Origin: a virus
Length of the DNA: 35,234 bases
Reading direction: 5' to 3' (one strand)
IMG/VR virus record: IMGVR_UViG_3300017767_000050
Coordinates: 1-35,234 of that record
The notes beneath the pieces were generated by a model. It saw only the letters and a list, made by a program, of their open reading frames with translations. It did not search any database and had not been told where the DNA came from. Of the stretch, positions 4,728 through 29,970 are shown piece by piece. The translations under genes were made by a program, and so were the position numbers. Position 1 is the stretch's first letter. Each line of letters starts with the position of its first letter.

Positions 4728-4949
4728 TTATTGAAGTATTTCTTTCCAGCGAAATCTTACTGATTCCCAGTTTCCTAGGTCTAGAGCATCATCTATTGCT
4801 ATAATTTGACCACTAATTTGCTGAAGTCTTTCAGTTCCGGAATTACGCATTTCTTGTATGCAATCTTCTTTAATCAAATTTAATTGATTCAGATACAGGG
4901 CAAAGTGTTCGTTATGGCCCAGTATTTCTATTTCTTTGTCAGCAAGCAT
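4728..4949 (-). CDS. small protein between portal and scaffold, 73 aa
   Basis: Mostly alpha-helical and polar (MLADKEIEILGHNEHFALYL... ERLQQISGQIIAIDDALD). Its start overlaps the portal stop as TAATG, so it is translationally coupled to the portal. A small head-assembly or scaffold helper is plausible from position, but the family is not recognised. Confidence 0.65.
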   Translation of the reverse strand: MLADKEIEILGHNEHFALYLNQLNLIKEDCIQEMRNSGTERLQQISGQIIAIDDALDLGNWESVRFRWKEILQ

Positions 4950-7021
4950 TATCGCATTCCTTGGGTTTGGGCTCCACCCATTGTAGCTGGAGGAGTACCA
5001 ATTTTTCCTATTTGGGCATTTTGAGCTTGCTGCATCGCAAACTGATATTGACCAGCATATTTTTGAAGCCTTTCAGCAAACTTTTGATCTTGCTGTAAAC
5101 GTTGAGCAACATCTTCCTGAGATGCGTATTGCTGGATAATTTGCATAGCTGCTTGAGCACCATTAGGACGTGCTGGCACTTCAATGCCTGCATAAATTTT
5201 CGATAAATCATCAGTAATATTTTTTAGAAGTTTTTCTTGAGATTGTTGAGCTGGCTCCATAACCGAGTCAGACAAAACTGGATCAATGCTATTGGCAATT
5301 ACACCAAGAAGCTTATCCATATTAATCCTACCGTTTCGATCAAGTGACACCAAAGAAACTAATCTTTCTAGCTTTTTTTCTTGGGCTTCTGCATCTGAAT
5401 TCATTACGTCGTAGCTAATGGTTACGTCGTAATTTTCGTCAGGATCTCCTTTTTCAAAAGATTGAGGGTCTGGAATTCCAGTAGCTTGAAAAAATATTTT
5501 GTCTGGTCCAAATCTTTGAAAACAACGATAACACAACGCCATTACTTCTCCTGCATGTTGCAAAAATTTGTTTACTAAAAACTGTCTTCTGATTTGAGAA
5601 GAACTAGATGCTTCGTCTAAGCCAACTAATCTGTCAGCTTGCTGCATCATGGTGTTTTCCATTTCTAGTGAGCCATTGTCAAACCTTGGTACTGGACCAA
5701 ACTCAATGTCACCTGGTCGCCTTCTAGCCACCTTACGTCCTGGTCCCCAGTCCGTAGGTGCTTGCCCTACTGGATGAATTAACGGCGGAAGAGTGGCTAG
5801 AGAGTTGCGATCAATTCTAGAGTCTCTTTCAATTTTTATTTGATTTTGAATCCCCCTAAGCAAATCAGGAATTGTTAAAGTGTCGTACAACCTTTTACTG
5901 TCTTCAGACAGTTTAGATACTACGACTGGATAATTTTCGTAACCATTTAAAAGTTCAAATTTTGCATATCCAGGAGCACTCTCGTCTCCGCTAAACTCTC
6001 TGTGAAATACAGTGCAATAAATACCTTCAGATCCATCATCTGGATCAATAAGGCGTTGATAGCCATAAACAATTTCTACTAGCTCTTCAGCTTCATAGTT
6101 CATGTCTGTTAAAGAAATTGTTCGACGACCCTCTTGCTCCCTTTCTATGGAGTCAATGTTTACCCCACTATATTTTTCTATTACATAATCTACAAAGTCT
6201 TCGTCCCAGCCATCAGTTTTAACCTTAAGCCTAAGGTCTTGAGCTGACAGATAAGTGCGGTAAAACCCATAAGGGGCACGTTGAGGATCTGTTACATACG
6301 CTGGAAAAACCCAATCGCCGTCTGGTGCTAATGTTTTAACATCTGGAGCGTCAACTTGCCGTCGAACAATAGGAAGTTCTGCAAATCCGGTATCTCTTAG
6401 GCTTTTCATTGCCTTTCGAGCCCTTTTTTCGCTTACGTCTGAAAATGCTTGTTGCAATAAAGCTATAGCTGCTTCGTCGGACCCATTAGCAATTTGTTGT
6501 CCTAGCTGTGGGTTTAGGCGTGTTATTTCGTCAAGACCAAGACGTTGTAAAAAACTTCGATCTTCTCTCCTCCAGCCAACATAGGTTATAAGTATTCCTC
6601 GCTCCAACAAGTAATTAGCACCTAGCTCCATTTCTTTCATGAAACGAGGGATATACCCGCTGCTAACCATCCATTTTAAAAAATTAGAAACAATCTTTGA
6701 TTTTCCAATATCATTAACTTCGGTAGGAAACGCAACTATGTTTGAGGCCTGTAAGGCACTCATAAACATACTAACCAATCTAGTAATTCTCTCGTCAATT
6801 ACATGGCTTTCCATGTCGCTAGCCCCTTCCCAAGGAAAGGCGTCTGCTCCATGCTTTCTTAAATCCCTAGATTTTCCTGGCCACCAATTTCGCCTATCAT
6901 CGTATGCGTTGCGGCATAATTGGAAATAGGACTCTAGCTCTAGCGTAGATTGATCGTAGGCCTTTGCTAGAGCCCCAATGTCGGGTTTTTCCCCAACGTA
7001 TGTTAATGAATCATTGTGCAT
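4949..7021 (-). CDS. portal (head-tail connector) protein
   Basis: The 690-aa protein fits podovirus portals. An N-terminal region with FPWEGASDMESHVIDERI precedes a long alpha/beta wing with acidic strands, the central PLIHPVG...ARRRPGDIEFGP block, a helix rich in Met and Gln (NTMMQQADRLVGLDE), and a C-terminal Gln/Ala-rich barrel-like tail (KYAGQYQFAMQQAQNAQ). It would form the dodecameric ring through which DNA is packaged and ejected. The order TerS, TerL, two small genes, portal, scaffold, capsid is classic. Confidence 0.88.
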   Translation of the reverse strand: MHNDSLTYVGEKPDIGALAKAYDQSTLELESYFQLCRNAYDDRRNWWPGKSRDLRKHGADAFPWEGASDMESHVIDERITRLVSMFMSALQASNIVAFPTEVNDIGKSKIVSNFLKWMVSSGYIPRFMKEMELGANYLLERGILITYVGWRREDRSFLQRLGLDEITRLNPQLGQQIANGSDEAAIALLQQAFSDVSEKRARKAMKSLRDTGFAELPIVRRQVDAPDVKTLAPDGDWVFPAYVTDPQRAPYGFYRTYLSAQDLRLKVKTDGWDEDFVDYVIEKYSGVNIDSIEREQEGRRTISLTDMNYEAEELVEIVYGYQRLIDPDDGSEGIYCTVFHREFSGDESAPGYAKFELLNGYENYPVVVSKLSEDSKRLYDTLTIPDLLRGIQNQIKIERDSRIDRNSLATLPPLIHPVGQAPTDWGPGRKVARRRPGDIEFGPVPRFDNGSLEMENTMMQQADRLVGLDEASSSSQIRRQFLVNKFLQHAGEVMALCYRCFQRFGPDKIFFQATGIPDPQSFEKGDPDENYDVTISYDVMNSDAEAQEKKLERLVSLVSLDRNGRINMDKLLGVIANSIDPVLSDSVMEPAQQSQEKLLKNITDDLSKIYAGIEVPARPNGAQAAMQIIQQYASQEDVAQRLQQDQKFAERLQKYAGQYQFAMQQAQNAQIGKIGTPPATMGGAQTQGMR

Positions 7022-10009: not shown

Positions 10010-10240
10010 TTAAACAATTATACGCCTTATGTCGTGGCGGATAGGAGGGCTTTTAAAGGGTTGGGTTTCAATGGTGGAGGAAGTGGGAGTTGCACCCACG
10101 TCCGAAGGTGGTGACTCTGTGACAGGTGACACTGTGACACCTACTTTCGTCGAATCTAATTTTCCCCCCCTAAATCTACTTTCATACTCTTTTATGTCCG
10201 TGTAAAAAGGTTCTTTAGGTTTAAATACGGTGTTGTTCAT
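10010..10240 (-). CDS. doubtful ORF overlapping a tmRNA-like element, 76 aa
   Basis: The N-terminal half (MNNTVFKPKEPFYTDIKEY) looks coding-like and overlaps the endolysin end by 20 bases. The C-terminal half is Pro/Ser/Thr/Val-rich (VTVSPVTESPPSDVGATPTS) and is exactly the part that overlays the tRNA-like element at 10072-10168. Either a short gene was extended into a structured RNA or the whole frame is fortuitous. The stop lies just before the TerS start. Confidence 0.35.
   Translation of the reverse strand: MNNTVFKPKEPFYTDIKEYESRFRGGKLDSTKVGVTVSPVTESPPSDVGATPTSSTIETQPFKSPPIRHDIRRIIV
10072..10168 (-). ncRNA. tmRNA tRNA-like-domain element (partial/minimal ssrA-like)
   Basis: On the minus strand the element starts GGGGGAA, followed five bases later by GATTCGACG, the hallmark of tmRNA 5' ends. 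It finishes with TTCGGAC, a T-arm (GTGGG, loop TGCAACT, CCCAC), TTCCTCC and ACCA. GGGGGAA pairs with TTCCTCC (one G-T wobble) as a 7-bp acceptor stem, with A and CCA following. The 3' end closely resembles the E. coli tmRNA 3' end as I remember it. The inner 45 bases can form a partial GAA/GGTG with CACC/TTC stem and contain four TCAC repeats. No mRNA-like domain or tag frame fits in 97 nt. It may be a relic, an attP-type copy of host ssrA, or a functional mini-RNA. The T-loop has G in place of the usual second T. Confidence 0.45.
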
Positions 10241-11604: not shown

Positions 11605-11649
11605 AAAAAAAAGGCAACCACACCCAATACTTGACTGGATGTGGCTGCC
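11605..11649 (-). terminator. strong intrinsic terminator ending the amidoligase cassette
   Basis: On the minus strand a 37-base hairpin (GGCAGCCACATCC with GGGTGTGGTTGCC, two mismatches) is followed by eight T residues. It lies just after the membrane-helix frame at 11655-11759 and about 100 bases after the amidotransferase gene, marking the end of the leftward cassette transcript. Confidence 0.85.
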
Positions 11650-11654
11650 CTGTG

Positions 11655-11759
11655 TTATCCTGAGAGTATGATCGAAGCTAAGCTAACTAGCGTTATCAAC
11701 AGCAGAAGTATGGTGATGATACCTTCTTCGATGAACTGCCAGATCCTTATCCCTGTATG
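11655..11759 (-). CDS. start-less transmembrane-helix frame after the amidotransferase
   Basis: The open frame of 34 codons encodes HTGIRIWQFIEEG, then a strongly hydrophobic helix (IITILLLLITLVSLASIIL) and stop. It has no ATG, GTG or TTG before the helix and overlaps the last codons of the upstream gene in the -1 frame. It could be a C-terminal membrane anchor added by frameshifting, a gene with an unusual start, or chance. The clean single-helix composition between gene and terminator argues against chance. Confidence 0.4.
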   Translation of the reverse strand, partial: HTGIRIWQFIEEGIITILLLLITLVSLASIILSG

Positions 11760-12796
11760 TCATATGTTTCCATGTCGTATGTCTCCTTTCTGTATTCTGC
11801 GAAGTGTTGGGCATACTCTGATGGTTTTACTGAGTAACCAAAGTACAGCCAACAAGAGTGTGTGTTGCCTTCTAGGTCTATACAGTCGATGATCTCGCGT
11901 CTGTATGTGTATGGATGTCCTTCGAGAGAGTCTATTGCTTCTCTGACTGATGGACTGTTTGCTTCGTAGATCTCTACCGCGATCTGTGATCCCTTGATGT
12001 TTTGGTCCTTGAAGACCATTGGGCATCCCATTACTTCCATCTTGTATTCTTCGTTGGTGAATCCTGATCCGATGAAATCTGAGTCTCCCAATAGCCTGTG
12101 ATTGTTGTGACTTGCTTTGAGTGTGCCGTAGACTGCAACCTTGTGATTGCCGTTCCATCCGAATGCTGGGAATGGTTCAGTTGTTCTGTAGGCGTAATGA
12201 TTTGAGTAGGCATCCCACTCGAACTCGTCATAGTCATCCTCTAGACTCTTGCTTGTGTACGACTTTGACGTCCCATTCCACAGGTAGCCTGTTGGCGTTT
12301 GCTTTGCAAAGCAGTTGGACTTGGAGTACCACACGCCTTCTTTCTTGTGCCAAGTGCCGTAGCGTTTGACTGATGGCTTTTGCGAAACACTCCTGTTTAC
12401 GATTGCGAATCTAGTCTCTGTCATGGACAGTATCTTTTCTACAACCTCTGGGCATTCACCCTCAAGGAGCTCTGCTACGCACTCTGTGTCTGTCTTGTTC
12501 TTTGATCCTAGTGGAACTGTACCATTAGAGAATAGTACGTCGTCCGAATTAGGTATTGGGAACGGGTGACAGTTGGCTTTGTTGACCTTGCCTACAGTGG
12601 CGAAGCGGTAGTGTGCTAGGTATGGTCGTTTCATTGCCATTAGCTTTCGTGCTTTGTCGTAGTCTGTGGTCTTGACCAACTCTCCGTCGTCAAGGAAGAC
12701 AATACCGAATCCATCTGGATTGATTTGCTCGGCGTTGTCGATGATTAGCTCTGGTATTCGCGTCTTTGCGCGTTCTTTATGTATTATGATGCACAT
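11747..12796 (-). CDS. glutamine amidotransferase (class II) fused to gamma-glutamylcyclotransferase
   Basis: The 349-aa two-domain protein starts MCIIIHK, placing Cys2 where the class-II (Ntn) glutaminase nucleophile sits. Matching motifs are NPDGFGI (26-32), AHYRFATVG (61-69), NCHPFP (75-80) and SNGTV (90-94). The C-terminal half is a GGCT/AIG2-like domain: VAVYGTLK (220-227) and DSLEGHPYTYRREI (289-302), where the conserved acid E292 and Tyr/Arg cluster lie. The N-domain would release ammonia from glutamine; the C-domain would cleave or cyclise gamma-glutamyl amides. It follows the amidoligase by 7 bases, so the two very likely act together. The physiological substrate is unknown. Confidence 0.85.
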   Translation of the reverse strand: MCIIIHKERAKTRIPELIIDNAEQINPDGFGIVFLDDGELVKTTDYDKARKLMAMKRPYLAHYRFATVGKVNKANCHPFPIPNSDDVLFSNGTVPLGSKNKTDTECVAELLEGECPEVVEKILSMTETRFAIVNRSVSQKPSVKRYGTWHKKEGVWYSKSNCFAKQTPTGYLWNGTSKSYTSKSLEDDYDEFEWDAYSNHYAYRTTEPFPAFGWNGNHKVAVYGTLKASHNNHRLLGDSDFIGSGFTNEEYKMEVMGCPMVFKDQNIKGSQIAVEIYEANSPSVREAIDSLEGHPYTYRREIIDCIDLEGNTHSCWLYFGYSVKPSEYAQHFAEYRKETYDMETYDIQG

Positions 12797-12803
12797 GGTA
12801 TGA

Positions 12804-14324
12804 TTAGATGAACTCTGAGATGTCGGAGCTTATTACTCCATTGTTTAGGTAGTTTTCGAAGGATTTGGCTAGTGCTAGGATCTTGTCCTTTTTCTCTAGT
12901 CCGTAGACCTCGTCAAGTAGCGAAGATGTGTTTCTAAGGTAGTCGTCGAATGACCTGGACTCCTTCATTGCACGTATTGTACAGTGAAAGAGTTTGTATC
13001 GCCAGATCAACTGTTTTTTGCTTTTGACCCTGGATGGTAGTCTGAACTCCAAGAAGTTTCTGCCTCTAACTCTGATGACGTCATATCTGTCTTGGTATGC
13101 TGCTTCGTCGAGTTTTTTGTTTTTGGAACAATACTCTGACCTTAGGCGGAACCGCCATAGGGCATATATTAGACCTGCGTATGGTCTTATTTCAGCTAGA
13201 CCAAATGAGCGTGTGTACTCATTGCACCTTACTGATACGTGACCTCCAGCTCTTGTTGTTTCTACTGGGGCGTCGATATAGTCTGACATTCTTATGTCCT
13301 GTCTGATGTCTTTTGATTGAAACAGATCGTAAGCGTTCGACACGCCTTCGATTCCGCAAGACGAATCGGTTTCCCACTTCCAGAAGAATGGTTGATCTTC
13401 TATTTCATCACCCTCGCTTCTTACCGTTTGTCCAGTGTCCTCGTTATATACGAATTCTTTTTCTATTTCGAATCCAATGGTCCACTTGGCTCCTGCGGGT
13501 TCCTTGATTTCTTTGTGTGTGCTGGAGTGGTATGCCAGGACCCTGTTTTCTGTTGGTACAGATCGGTATTCGTCTGTGAATTCACAGTAGAAGCATTCGT
13601 CTGCGTGAAGCCACTCCTCAATGTCAGTGGCGAATTTGTATTCCTCTGTTCGCATTGGATTTATCCACTGGTTCAGAGATTCTGACCACTCCAAGCTGCC
13701 TTTTAGGTCGTACTCTTGTAGCTCTTCGACCCACTTGCAGTCTGTTGCTAGTAGGTGCAGGTCCTTATACTCGTTGTACACTGTATGGTCGATGTGTGTT
13801 ATCCTCCATCCGTAGGCGCTGATTTGCGTGTTGTTTACGTGTGCAATCACTATGTCCTCGTTTTTGTGGACAATGTTTCTCCAGTTTGCACATTTCCATG
13901 TTGGATATTTTATTGGGTTGAACAATGACTCTACTAAGATGTTTTCTATCTCTTCGAGTGTGTTGCCTTCGTCCCACACGAACTTGCCGATGTTCCATTT
14001 GTGGATCAAATCGTCGTTGTTGTACGTGCGAATAATCCTTCCGAGTCTAGAGTGATTCATCCTCCAGTCATTTTTTATGATTGCGGATGCCAGTAGACCC
14101 GGTTGTTTTTCCAACTCCTCTAGGGATATTTCGTGTATTATCTCTCTTGCAGTTGCTGAGTCTTGTGTGTAGTCTCGCAACAGGAGGTTGTGTATTGGGA
14201 GGTTGGCCCCGATTGTTGGGTGTATGTGACACTCTTGTCCTTCTCCTTGGAAGAACACTAGGTTGTAGTTCAATGGTGTTTCGATCTCTACTGGATCGTC
14301 TACGCTGGGTGTTGGTATGTACAT
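12804..14324 (-). CDS. glutamine-synthetase-like amidoligase with large N-terminal extension
   Basis: The C-terminal 230 residues of this 506-aa protein match the amidoligase (COOH-NH2 ligase) pattern. KWTIGFEIEKEF (280-291) carries the E-x-E strand, WETDSSCGIEG (317-327) the D-x-S...G-x-E motif, AGGHVSV (359-365) the GG/H motif, and RNFLEFRLPS (422-431) the terminal E-F-R. These residues would bind ATP-Mg and activate a carboxylate for amide formation. Residues 1-278 are not recognised and include a C-x-x-C pair (244-247) and many Trp/His residues, perhaps a substrate-recognition region. The gene lies in an operon with a 76-aa protein and the GATase-GGCT fusion. Confidence 0.82.
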   Translation of the reverse strand: MYIPTPSVDDPVEIETPLNYNLVFFQGEGQECHIHPTIGANLPIHNLLLRDYTQDSATAREIIHEISLEELEKQPGLLASAIIKNDWRMNHSRLGRIIRTYNNDDLIHKWNIGKFVWDEGNTLEEIENILVESLFNPIKYPTWKCANWRNIVHKNEDIVIAHVNNTQISAYGWRITHIDHTVYNEYKDLHLLATDCKWVEELQEYDLKGSLEWSESLNQWINPMRTEEYKFATDIEEWLHADECFYCEFTDEYRSVPTENRVLAYHSSTHKEIKEPAGAKWTIGFEIEKEFVYNEDTGQTVRSEGDEIEDQPFFWKWETDSSCGIEGVSNAYDLFQSKDIRQDIRMSDYIDAPVETTRAGGHVSVRCNEYTRSFGLAEIRPYAGLIYALWRFRLRSEYCSKNKKLDEAAYQDRYDVIRVRGRNFLEFRLPSRVKSKKQLIWRYKLFHCTIRAMKESRSFDDYLRNTSSLLDEVYGLEKKDKILALAKSFENYLNNGVISSDISEFI

Positions 14325-14555
14325 TTATTTTTTGGTTTTGATTTTTTCTATTGATTTTGCCCAGATCAGATCAACTAGATCCGGTGCGTATTGATACAAC
14401 ATTTCGGCGATTTGCTCACCGTTTGCCGTTATGTCTATTGACCGAATGTCCAGATCTTCATCTATCCATTCTGTCTCTAGGTCCCCAGTTTGCCCAGGGA
14501 TGTAGTCTGCTTCGACCGTAATCTTGCAGTTGTTTATGTTTGTTTTTATTATCAT
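14325..14555 (-). CDS. small acidic protein, first gene of the amidoligase cassette, 76 aa
   Basis: Begins MIIKTNINNCKITVEADY, has an acidic middle (LETEWIDEDLDIRSIDI) and a basic tail (IEKIKTKK). The stop abuts the amidoligase start. ATG at 14555 is preferred because the -10 box candidate at 14568-14575 would make longer starts leaderless. No family recognised; it might be the acceptor or a partner of the amidoligase, but nothing shows this. Confidence 0.6.
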   Translation of the reverse strand: MIIKTNINNCKITVEADYIPGQTGDLETEWIDEDLDIRSIDITANGEQIAEMLYQYAPDLVDLIWAKSIEKIKTKK

Positions 14556-14567
14556 ATTATTACATTT

Positions 14568-14597
14568 TATATATAACTTAATCGTCATATATCTCAA
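14568..14597 (-). promoter_or_regulatory. leftward promoter of the amidoligase cassette
   Basis: On the minus strand TTGAGA (14592-14597) is followed after 16-18 bases by TATATA/TATAAA (14568-14575), a sigma-70-like arrangement just upstream of the 76-aa gene. The resulting leader would be very short, about 10 bases. Confidence 0.5.
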
Positions 14598-14655
14598 AAT
14601 AATAGTAACCACAAGGGTACCCTGGGACATAGAGACTTCAAGATCAAATGCCCTC

Positions 14656-14688
14656 CCAAAATCATGGGGCACCACATGATTGTTTTGG
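14656..14688. repeat. imperfect inverted repeat over a rightward promoter
   Basis: CCAAAA-TCATG is complementary to CATGA-TTG-TTTTGG with a 3-base bulge and an 8-base loop. It overlaps the -35 of the rightward promoter at 14685-14714, so it could be an operator or an RNA hairpin. Confidence 0.45.
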
Positions 14689-14714
14689 CGGTTTTTTGTA
14701 AAAAGTTGTATAAT
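14685..14714 (+). promoter_or_regulatory. rightward sigma-70-like promoter
   Basis: TTGGCG (14685-14690), an 18-base spacer and a perfect TATAAT (14709-14714). It points towards the replication genes about 650 bases away, through the noncoding control region, so its first product may be a leader or small RNA. Confidence 0.6.
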
Positions 14715-15063
14715 GCAACAACAGATCGACTGCATTTACCACTTTTTACCGAAGGCTTGCAAACAAACCGACACAAACTAGCATTTTCTCTTGAAGCTAG
14801 CGAGAGGATCGAGACTTGCTATTCGTTCGCTCATATGATTGCACGTTAGTGCCCTCAAGATTAGAACTAATAGTCTATATGGTTTAGGGTCAGCGAGGAG
14901 AGAAAAAAATAAATCACAGACAAATCAAGCAAAACAACACTGCCCTCAGCTTTTAAGCGGGTAGTTTGTTTTGTGAAGATCCTATTGTTGTTGCGCTTGC
15001 GCATCTAAAACTAACAGTCGGTGGTTTAATTTTTTTTCGGACGGGTTGTGGTACTATTATGGC

Positions 15064-15242
15064 TCTAGGTAAAATAATTTATTTGGATCTAGGGCTTTGT
15101 CCCGACGATCTATCAAACAAATTGATTATTGTCTCTAGAGGCTGACGGAGGGAAAAGTGCAGGTGCTCCGTCACCGCTGGGCGAAGCCCACAACTTTTCA
15201 GACGAACACTGCGGGAGCGTGAGGCGTCCTCGCTGATTTTTT
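15064..15242 (+). ncRNA. candidate small RNA with H-type pseudoknot
   Basis: An extended -10 (TGGTACTAT, 15049-15057) precedes it and an intrinsic terminator ends it. In between, TGACGGAG (15143-15150) pairs perfectly with CTCCGTCA (15166-15173). The loop sequence GAAAAGT (15152-15158) pairs perfectly with ACTTTTC (15193-15199) beyond that stem, forming an H-type pseudoknot. A third hairpin TGGGC-GAA-GCCCA (15178-15190) lies in the connecting loop. It does not match any riboswitch or ribozyme consensus I could recall (checked: glutamine, HDV-like, pistol). Transcription start is a guess. Confidence 0.5.
15216..15242 (+). terminator. intrinsic terminator after the pseudoknot
   Basis: AGCG(TG)AGG-CGT-CCTCGCT forms a 7-bp stem with a 2-base bulge, followed by GA and TTTTTT (15237-15242). 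It would end a transcript upstream of the first early gene. Confidence 0.55.
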
Positions 15243-15278
15243 CTTTGTTTGTGTCAGAGGAAAGCGCGCGCCGGACAT

Positions 15279-15316
15279 GCTGAAGTTGTTTTGGAAAACA
15301 AGCTGAAGTTGTTTTG
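15279..15316. repeat. 15-bp direct repeats with internal palindrome before the early genes
   Basis: GCTGAAGTTGTTTTG occurs at 15279-15293 and 15302-15316 (period 23). The first copy and its spacer form the palindrome TTGTTTT-GG-AAAACAA (15286-15301). TTGAGA at 15314-15319 followed by TTTAGA could be the early promoter, so a regulator bound here would control it. Confidence 0.55.
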
Positions 15317-15359
15317 AGAAAAAACTGGACTTTTTTGTTTAGATTTTTAAAGTAAAGAT

Positions 15360-28125: not shown

Positions 28126-29970
28126 TTAGACTCCTAAAGCAAATTTAAGAAGAGAGCTAGCTACATTTGACCCTAAAGATGATTGACCCGATTGCCTACT
28201 AGCATCAGCAACCATTTGGGCGGTTTCTAATCCTATAGCATTACCGATGTCTGCACCTGCAATGTTTACGCCTTGAGCTGGGTCAATTCCAACTTGTTGT
28301 CCGACTCCCAAAATGTCTTGCAGTCCTCTGCTTTGCATAGATGAAGCCGTACCGTATCCTGCGTATGATCCTCGTGAGGTTCTGTTAGCAAGGTCGAGAT
28401 CTTTTAAGTAATTTCTGTGAGACTCTGCTTGGGTTCTGTTCATAATGTCTGCCAATAATGCGTTATCATCCCTTCTTCCCCTTCCCACATTTGTAGCAGA
28501 TGCGTTCTCTCGCATTTGCATTTTTTCAAAATCAGTAAGCCTACCAGCATCCCTTCGAAGTCGGTCTGCGGTTTGTGCTTCGGCTGCAGCTTGCCCTAAA
28601 ACGCCTTCAAGCATAGCGTTGTTTCGATCACCCATGCCGGTACCCTCTTGGCCCGTTAGTGCACGATAGTCGGTACCCATCTGGCTGGTTTGCCTTGGGT
28701 TAAGAACAGACTCCATGTCCATTACTCCGCTAAGGTAATCTTGCATTCCTCCTGGCATTTGCTGCTGTCCAGTGGCAGTTGGAAGAATTTTTCCCATTTG
28801 GAAATCAGATGTATATTGATCTGGCATTAACTCAGTTAGATACGGCATTATGTCCCGAAAACTACTAGAGTCAAACGTCCCATCGGCACCGGCGTCACCC
28901 TGTATTCCTTGTTCTCCCTGTATTCCCTGAATGCCTTGAGCACCGGTTGCACCGGTGGCTCCTGTAGCACCGGCTTCTCCTTGAAGTCCTTGAGCTCCTG
29001 TAGCCCCCGTTGCTCCTGTTGCTCCTGTTGCCCCTGTAGCTCCTGTAGCTCCTGTTGCTCCTGTGTCTCCTTGAATACCTTGTATGCCTTGAATGCCTTG
29101 AATACCTTGTAGACCAGTTTGACCCATAAGCCCTTGTATCCCTTGAAGTCCAGTATCTCCTTGAATACCTTGTATCCCTTGAAGTCCAGTATCTCCTTGA
29201 ATACCTTGTATCCCTTGTTCTCCTTGAATTCCCTGAATGCCTTGAGCTCCAGCCTCACCCGTGAGCCCCTGTATGCCTTGTATTCCTTGTTCTCCCTGAA
29301 GCCCCTGTAGGCCAGTATCTCCTTGAATACCTTGTATGCCTTGCAATCCAGTTTCTCCTTGAAGTCCCTGTATTCCTTGCTCTCCCTGAAGCCCCATTTC
29401 TTCGAATAAAGCCTGTAATTCTTCTTCTGTCATGTTATCTCCAAATCCACCTGTGTTGTTTAAAATTGACCCCCCTAAAATAGATAATATTTGCTGAGGA
29501 AGGTTGCCGTACTGTTGATTAGCTGGGTCAAAAGGGGCGTTTCCACCACCAACGTTTCCACCACTAAGTCTTCCACCACCTCCTCCACCTCCTGGATCTC
29601 CGCCAGAAATGTCTCCTACATCCGTATTAGATCCTCCATAGGGACCAGATCCTTCTTCAGAACTAAGTCCAGTTTCATTAATTGAATAATCTGTAGAATC
29701 AGAAGAGGCAGAAGAGGCAGAAGCATCTCCAGTTTCGGGAGGAACGTAAGCATCATCACCTTTTTGAATATATTGTTCAGGAATCGCAAAATCATCTTCA
29801 GAAAGACCGAAGTCACCAAGAACCCTTCGAATGCTATCACTATCAAGCTGACCAGCAAGAGCAAGCTCATCAAACTTGTCAAAAATTTCTTGCTCTTCCT
29901 CCTCGCTATATAAATCGTATCTCTGCCGATCTTCTTCGCCTGGATCTTGGTCTGTATCTCCGTTAGACAT
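28126..29970 (-). CDS. virion protein with collagen-like rod, 614 aa
   Basis: An acidic N-terminus ([15 protein letters not shown]), Gly-rich linkers, then about 56 uninterrupted Gly-x-y triplets at residues 193-361 (GIQG, GLQG, GDTG, GATG units). The 250-residue C-terminus ([21 protein letters not shown] and similar) looks like internal ejection proteins more than a receptor-binding tip. Collagen-like stretches in phages usually form trimeric fibre rods. Position between fibre and internal protein genes leaves both roles open: fibre-like rod or internal protein. Repeats here could expand or contract by slippage. Confidence 0.75.
28888..29394 (-). repeat. collagen-coding 9-bp and 18-bp repeats
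   Basis: DNA repeats encode Gly-x-y units, including seven consecutive GAT (Gly-Ala-Thr) triplets at about 29008-29061 and [17 protein letters not shown] units elsewhere. Because the repeats are in register, a second reading frame (28848-29258) is also open; it is a by-product. A substrate for length variation. Confidence 0.85.

Follow-up and report, generated by a model that had tools for sequence, protein, structure and literature searches.

Glutamine synthetase (GS)-like amidoligases and the phage cassettes that carry them were reportedly predicted by Iyer et al. in 2009. A multi-gene amidoligase toolkit has previously been described in podoviruses (PMC5498523, PMC3890496, PMC10580990), and for phiEco32 one of these papers refers to Iyer et al. 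2009 (PMC10580990). A cassette of this kind lies in IMG/VR virus record IMGVR_UViG_3300017767_000050, a virus of bacteria whose 35,234 bp form the window analysed here. It pairs a 506-aa ligase with a 349-aa protein in which a class-II glutaminase is fused to a gamma-glutamylamine cyclotransferase (GGACT). The cassette type itself is known; new here are an unrecognised ligase branch, the fusion, the swapping of ligases and a probably exchanged N-terminal ligase module. Neither the glutaminase-GGACT fusion nor the new ligase branch was found described in the literature searched, coverage of which is incomplete.

The podovirus 'peptidoglycan modification' modules (LUZ24-like, phiEco32, RIO-1/PSA-HP1, CW02) likewise combine an amidoligase, a class-II glutaminase and a gamma-glutamyl cyclotransferase (GGCT) near replication genes (PMC5498523, PMC3890496, PMC11945000). 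In tf and CW02, however, a glutamine amidotransferase (GAT), a COOH-NH2 ligase, an amidoligase, an ATP-grasp protein and GGCT are encoded by five separate genes, whereas the window joins glutaminase and cyclotransferase in one protein. A RimK-like ATP-grasp was not seen in the scanned window open reading frames (ORFs), though tf's own ATP-grasp falls below the Pfam cut-off. Amidoligase and class-II glutaminase are likewise adjacent in the OM43 phages MEP401 and MEP402 (PMC10580990), but there the amidoligase is of the Pfam type (a weak match) and the glutaminase has no GGACT domain. The two window enzymes and their parts, with model confidence as the predicted local distance difference test (pLDDT), are:

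12804-14324, minus strand: gene for the 506-aa ligase, a predicted divergent GS-fold amidoligase (model, structure matches, profile alignment)
13857-14324, minus strand: variable ligase region, residues 1-156 (low-confidence model, pLDDT mostly <50)
13491-13856, minus strand: zinc-knuckle/LIM-like beta-hairpin repeats, ligase residues 157-278
12807-13490, minus strand: GS-like amidoligase catalytic domain, ligase residues 279-506 (invariant residues, model, structures, profile)
11747-12796, minus strand: gene for the 349-aa fusion protein (ORF, Pfam, model, structure matches)
12302-12796, minus strand: class-II, N-terminal nucleophile (Ntn) glutaminase, fusion residues 1-165 (nucleophile Cys2, R64, N91-G92, D103)
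12149-12301, minus strand: linker, fusion residues 166-216 (pLDDT <50 for 171-203 and 205-211)
11822-12148, minus strand: GGACT domain, fusion residues 217-325 (YGTL 223-226, catalytic E292, Y298)

A divergent branch of GS-fold amidoligases

The window ligase is, on its modelled structure, a GS-fold amidoligase of a widespread and previously unrecognised branch of the superfamily. Its AlphaFold (AF2) model places residues 180-506 at pLDDT ~90+ and matches PDB structures of glutamine synthetase (9n4x, E=4e-4), GmaS (7cql, second-best) and YbdK (1r8g). All three share its catalytic fold and metal-site motif order, but the ligase has no sequence-level match to them, a smaller catalytic domain and an extra N-terminal module. 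In BFVD, many of the matches are phage entries labelled 'Amidoligase enzyme', the best at 3.5e-11, and the named viral ones are mostly amidoligases.

Aligned by hhalign, 74 catalytic domains are colinear with the Amidoligase_2 proteins of related cassettes (probability 73, score 42.7), including the D..S, E and ExR motifs, while 30 column shuffles reach a probability of at most 0.6 and a score of at most 18.7, and an unrelated family reaches 0.1. Judged from these profiles, homology to the GS-like amidoligase superfamily is above chance. Amidoligase_2 (PF12224), which includes the enzymes of C75C1, MEP402, tf and CW02, has a GS-type fold, an adjoining class-II glutaminase and the same motif order (GxExE / D..S / E / GxH / ExR), and some of its members carry zinc-knuckle N-terminal extensions. 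The new branch nevertheless differs in leaving the Pfam model unmatched and in replacing the second motif histidine, and the two families never occur in one record together.

Ten residues (G284, E286, E288, K289, D320, E326, R393, E426, R428 and R442) are invariant in 56/56 ligases, and H362 and S322 are each kept in 55/56; from established knowledge of the GS fold, we take the invariant residues to correspond to the GS metal ligands. The preliminary description of this DNA, made from the sequence alone, had called the protein a GS-like amidoligase, and the fold, the structural matches and a profile alignment far above shuffles uphold that call. Neither the lack of an amidoligase fold nor the loss of ATP- and metal-type residues, the grounds it named for doubt, was found. 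Its motif positions stand for D320/S321, G361/H362 and E426-F-R428, and its E-x-E moves from 285-287 to E286-x-E288.

Pfam and PHROG scans gave no match to the window ligase, NCBIfam gave none to either of two ligase-family members tested, and a PDB sequence search using the ligase profile gave none. Two or three weak PHROG matches do occur among relatives, including to 'amidoligase enzyme' families. A genome scan using one peptide pattern did not find a bacterial relative.

Three observations weigh against the assignment. Full-length template-modelling (TM) scores against GS reach just 0.2-0.3, since the alignments are loose and leave the N-terminal half of the ligase unmatched. The second histidine of GxHxH is replaced by T, N, S or C across the 56 ligases (S364 in the window), and 0/56 aligned family members reach the Pfam cut-off for PF12224. 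The last two would suit a catalytically dead GS-fold scaffold or a regulator of the glutaminase; yet the metal/ATP-type acidic residues and the arginines are invariant in 56 diverse members, and the catalytic domain is under strong purifying selection, with a nonsynonymous to synonymous substitution ratio (dN/dS) of 0.07-0.09. A dead protein is very unlikely.

A probably exchanged N-terminal module

The preliminary description regarded the first 278 residues of the ligase as an unrecognised half and proposed structure prediction for them. Residues 157-260 prove recognisable as degenerate zinc-knuckle hairpins, and the half is dispensable, being absent from about half of the ligase family (members of 285-345 aa). 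The prediction is of low confidence for residues 1-156 and gives confident hairpin repeats from residue 180, where pLDDT is 80-95 within the region 157-278. Most of the cysteines have been lost (C195 and C244/C247 remain), longer relatives carry beta-hairpin repeats with CxxC pairs at various stages of loss, and BFVD matches the hairpin region to a 'LIM domain containing protein'.

When the window is compared with its two nearest relatives, DNA identity is ~0.6 over ligase residues ~20 to ~276; for residues 1-156 it is 0.56-0.66, against ~0.85 in the flanks. Identity is back to ~0.85 at the catalytic domain, and the two relatives are mutually ~0.8-0.9 identical throughout. Synonymous divergence (dS) has reached saturation in the earlier part of the block, which limits dN/dS for residues 1-156, and is ~2 in the later part; the catalytic domain has a dS of 0.75-0.95 and the neighbouring 76-aa gene one of 0.4. 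Relaxed constraint alone is no sufficient explanation because it would not raise dS. From sequence comparison, the divergent block is best read as a recombinational module exchange at the domain boundary that would have occurred in this phage.

The N-terminal module is likely the target-recognition part: it resembles zinc knuckles, some ligases do without it, and phages exchange it separately from the catalytic domain. Optional use and exchange at a domain boundary are also what a host-specific recognition part would show in host takeover or counter-defence, where the ligase would amidate, glutamylate or cross-link a host or defence protein chosen by the module. Short ligases without the module speak against that role, as do a PADLOC scan that gave no match to known anti-phage defence systems and the absence of any direct link to such a system; we regard it as unlikely.

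A glutaminase fused to a cyclotransferase

The N-terminal half of the fusion protein was predicted in the preliminary description to be a class-II glutaminase with Cys2 as nucleophile, and it is: its model matches the GlmS glutaminase folds 3ooj and 1xff (E ~4e-6) and also PurF 1ao0, so that the possible lack of an Ntn fold raised there is answered, and C2, R64, N91-G92 and D103 are invariant in 54/54 fusion relatives. Profile searches suggested for both cassette enzymes gave a mixed outcome, with GGACT above its cut-off, the glutaminase below threshold and Amidoligase_2 without a profile match. The Pfam GGACT model (PF06094) scores 50.3 bits against a cut-off of 22.8 (E=4e-13); GATase_6 reaches 20 bits against 27 and GATase_4 is also sub-threshold, a cut-off that is a library threshold and does not define the Ntn fold.

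The C-terminal half had been called a gamma-glutamylcyclotransferase. The cyclotransferase activity class stands; for the subtype, sequence and structure comparison lead us to favour the gamma-glutamylamine type (GGACT) over the glutathione-type GGCT. This part matches the mouse and human GGACT structures 1vkb, 3jub and 3juc. With GGACT (PDB 3jub, 1vkb) it has in common the fold and the YGTL/Glu82/Tyr88 catalytic set; Y223-G-T-L226, E292 and Y298 are invariant in 54/54 fusion relatives, and E292 aligns with Glu82 of mouse and human GGACT, position 82 of the mouse enzyme being listed as a catalytic-site residue (PMC2954230). The phage version differs in its fusion to a class-II glutaminase, and its physiological substrate may differ as well.

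A glutaminase-GGACT fusion also occurs on a contig of a Campylobacteraceae metagenome-assembled genome (L173, 6001-6822), beside a uracil-DNA-glycosylase-like gene. No amidoligase was seen among the large ORFs nearby, and it is possibly a cellular version.

Ligase replacement within a conserved pairing

The fusion is present in 44/50 whole ligase records, and the six records without it are contigs that end within ~2.5 kb downstream of the ligase. Locus searches based on the ligase and on the fusion converge on the same loci. Where the fusion occurs without this ligase, 26 loci have an Amidoligase_2-type ligase instead. The exclusion holds in both directions: Amidoligase_2 is above cut-off in 0/46 ligase records (three control records are positive), and the new-branch ligase is found in 0/31 other records, nearly all of them fusion-bearing. 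The sister phage C75C1 (terminase identity 71.7%) has a canonical Amidoligase_2 upstream of its fusion gene, at the equivalent place beside the terminase cluster. Because the two unlike ligases are mutually exclusive and are swapped in C75C1, they fill one functional slot ahead of a shared glutaminase-GGACT partner.

This arrangement bears on a role in auxiliary nitrogen metabolism, in which the cassette would only shift glutamine and glutamate pools for phage replication. Glutaminase and GS-fold chemistry fit such a role, but a specific ligase that is strictly tied to the glutaminase, and whose place another amidoligase can take, points to a dedicated product, which makes it very unlikely.

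MEP401/402 have ligase and glutaminase without GGACT, so these two form the core and GGACT is an addition; the same combination occurs in L008, L010, L034 and L087. Gene content varies further at some loci. Records L018 and L019 have the order ligase-fusion-ligase, with two new-branch ligase copies flanking a 525-aa fusion, and L087 has two ligase copies. In ~60-kb phages (e.g. L050, L069, L159) a recurrent family of 134-213 aa, seen at 31 loci, lies between ligase and fusion, as does a zinc-ribbon-like family; no enzyme was identified among these intervening genes.

Possible function

As a whole, the cassette could well encode two proteins that together carry out ATP-dependent amidation, probably in the early phase of infection and with an envelope-peptide target, a reading for which we judge the chances about evenly balanced. 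The glutaminase domain, with its complete catalytic set, would hydrolyse L-glutamine at Cys2 and free ammonia, which would be handed to the ligase. The ligase would activate a carboxylate with ATP and condense it with the ammonia or another amine. The GGACT domain would then strip gamma-glutamyl groups from amines as 5-oxoproline, which could serve to edit or trim products or to unblock them. The loop of amide formation, ammonia supply and cleavage drawn in the preliminary description, and the targets named there, likewise stay predictions.

By analogy with related cassettes, the leading candidate for the target, though taken alone somewhat less likely than not, is a carboxyl-bearing host envelope peptide, e.g. 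the peptidoglycan stem or its precursor. Altering the envelope would keep out superinfecting phages or shield the infected cell, in line with proposals for the larger LUZ24, phiEco32 and RIO-1 cassettes, and an envelope or wall target is the published proposal for related cassettes (PMC5498523; PMC10580990; PMC11945000). Experimental proof that the podovirus modules act on peptidoglycan was not found in the literature searched.

Three further points count against this overall reading. The COOH-NH2 ligase (PF14395) of the podovirus modules is found in 0/45 records including the window, and a scan with CW02 and tf as positive controls was again negative for the window. The window cassette shares its strand with the late genes. 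GGACT acts on gamma-glutamyl groups whose alpha-amine is free; a role for it in wall amidation is hard to place because D-Glu inside the peptidoglycan stem has no such amine.

GmaS and PuuA join the gamma-carboxyl of glutamate to amines, and BtrJ/BtrG exemplify the protecting-group logic of butirosin biosynthesis. The cassette might likewise handle gamma-glutamyl groups on a metabolite or on small amines. In that case the ligase would link the gamma-carboxyl of glutamate to an amine, the glutaminase would supply glutamate or ammonia, and GGACT would free the amine later. The rank of GmaS among the solved structures, a cyclotransferase resembling GGACT, the enzyme class of gamma-glutamylamines, and the BtrG-like annotation of the homologous gene in phage tf are consistent with this. 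However, biosynthetic partner genes were not seen among the scanned window ORFs, deprotection cannot be obligatory given the four L-numbered records without GGACT, and a large recognition-like N-terminal module suits a macromolecular substrate better. Small-amine chemistry is possible but somewhat unlikely. DNA hypermodification was dropped, as no nucleobase-synthesis or base-modifying partner was seen among the scanned window ORFs.

Genomic context

The cassette's genes, encoding proteins of 76, 506 and 349 aa, all lie on the minus strand (window 14555-11747) and form one unit with a strong terminator-like hairpin at its end. The three ORFs and the spacing of exactly 7 nt between ligase and fusion (12797-12803) are confirmed at the strand and positions given in the preliminary description. 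The flanking features are:

14325-14555, minus strand: 76-aa acidic protein, cassette gene 1, whose stop codon abuts the ligase start
11611-11651, minus strand: intrinsic-terminator-like hairpin of 18 pairs followed by a T run, 95 nt past the fusion stop
14556-15359, no strand: long divergent intergenic region between cassette and replication genes, ~800 bp without a convincing gene

Two closely related records (72%/92% identity) repeat this gene order, and dN/dS is 0.04-0.24 across the cassette domains, with the exception of the poorly conserved last 24 fusion residues. Because gene order recurs, the ligase-fusion pairing is found in dozens of records and dN/dS is low, these are no chance ORFs. 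The cassette lies near replication genes in C75C1, MW202828 and MEP40x.

The 76-aa protein was put forward in the preliminary description as a novel part, with a neighbourhood survey to follow. Apart from the window, homologues are confined to the two nearest records (88-92% identity, dN/dS ~0.1), so that it is restricted to three genomes and was rejected as a conserved core component; a comparison with the similarly placed small proteins of L077 and L088 failed.

Elsewhere in the window, the long intergenic stretch that precedes the replication genes contains two tandem copies of a 23-nt repeat (15275-15320), and a 614-aa protein of the structural region (28126-29970, minus strand) contains a long collagen-like G-X-Y repeat (GLQGIQGEQ...). 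A transfer-messenger RNA (tmRNA) match in Rfam (10072-10168, minus strand, 47.8 bits) has both ends of the tRNA-like domain and no tag-coding part, with ~22 nt where tmRNA has ~300. Such elements are present also in L244-L263, L015 and L016, and a pattern scan places this kind of element in 20 viral contigs. Those inspected vary in several ways in the acceptor stem but keep G3-U70 (alanine identity), and most encode the 3' CCA. The element is a candidate phage-encoded, alanine-accepting tmRNA mimic. The close relative L003 has a tRNA-Thr(TGT) gene at 4896-4971, between lysozyme-like and small-terminase-like genes.

Implications

Although such phage cassettes were reportedly predicted as early as 2009, no demonstrated substrate was found in the literature searched. 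With only two enzymes, one of which is a fusion, the window-type cassette is compact; it is also widespread among metagenomic phages and overlooked by standard annotation. It is possible, though less likely than not, that phage-restricted GS-fold ligases partnered with the glutaminase-GGACT fusion form a modular amidation machine with an interchangeable ligase slot, in which an N-terminal adaptor swapped at the domain boundary retargets amide chemistry to differing substrates, be they host envelope components or proteins. Together, the fusion, the two ligase families that exclude each other and the exchangeable module make up a minimal set suited to expression and assay, and with natural ligase swaps available for comparison, the substrate question becomes directly testable.

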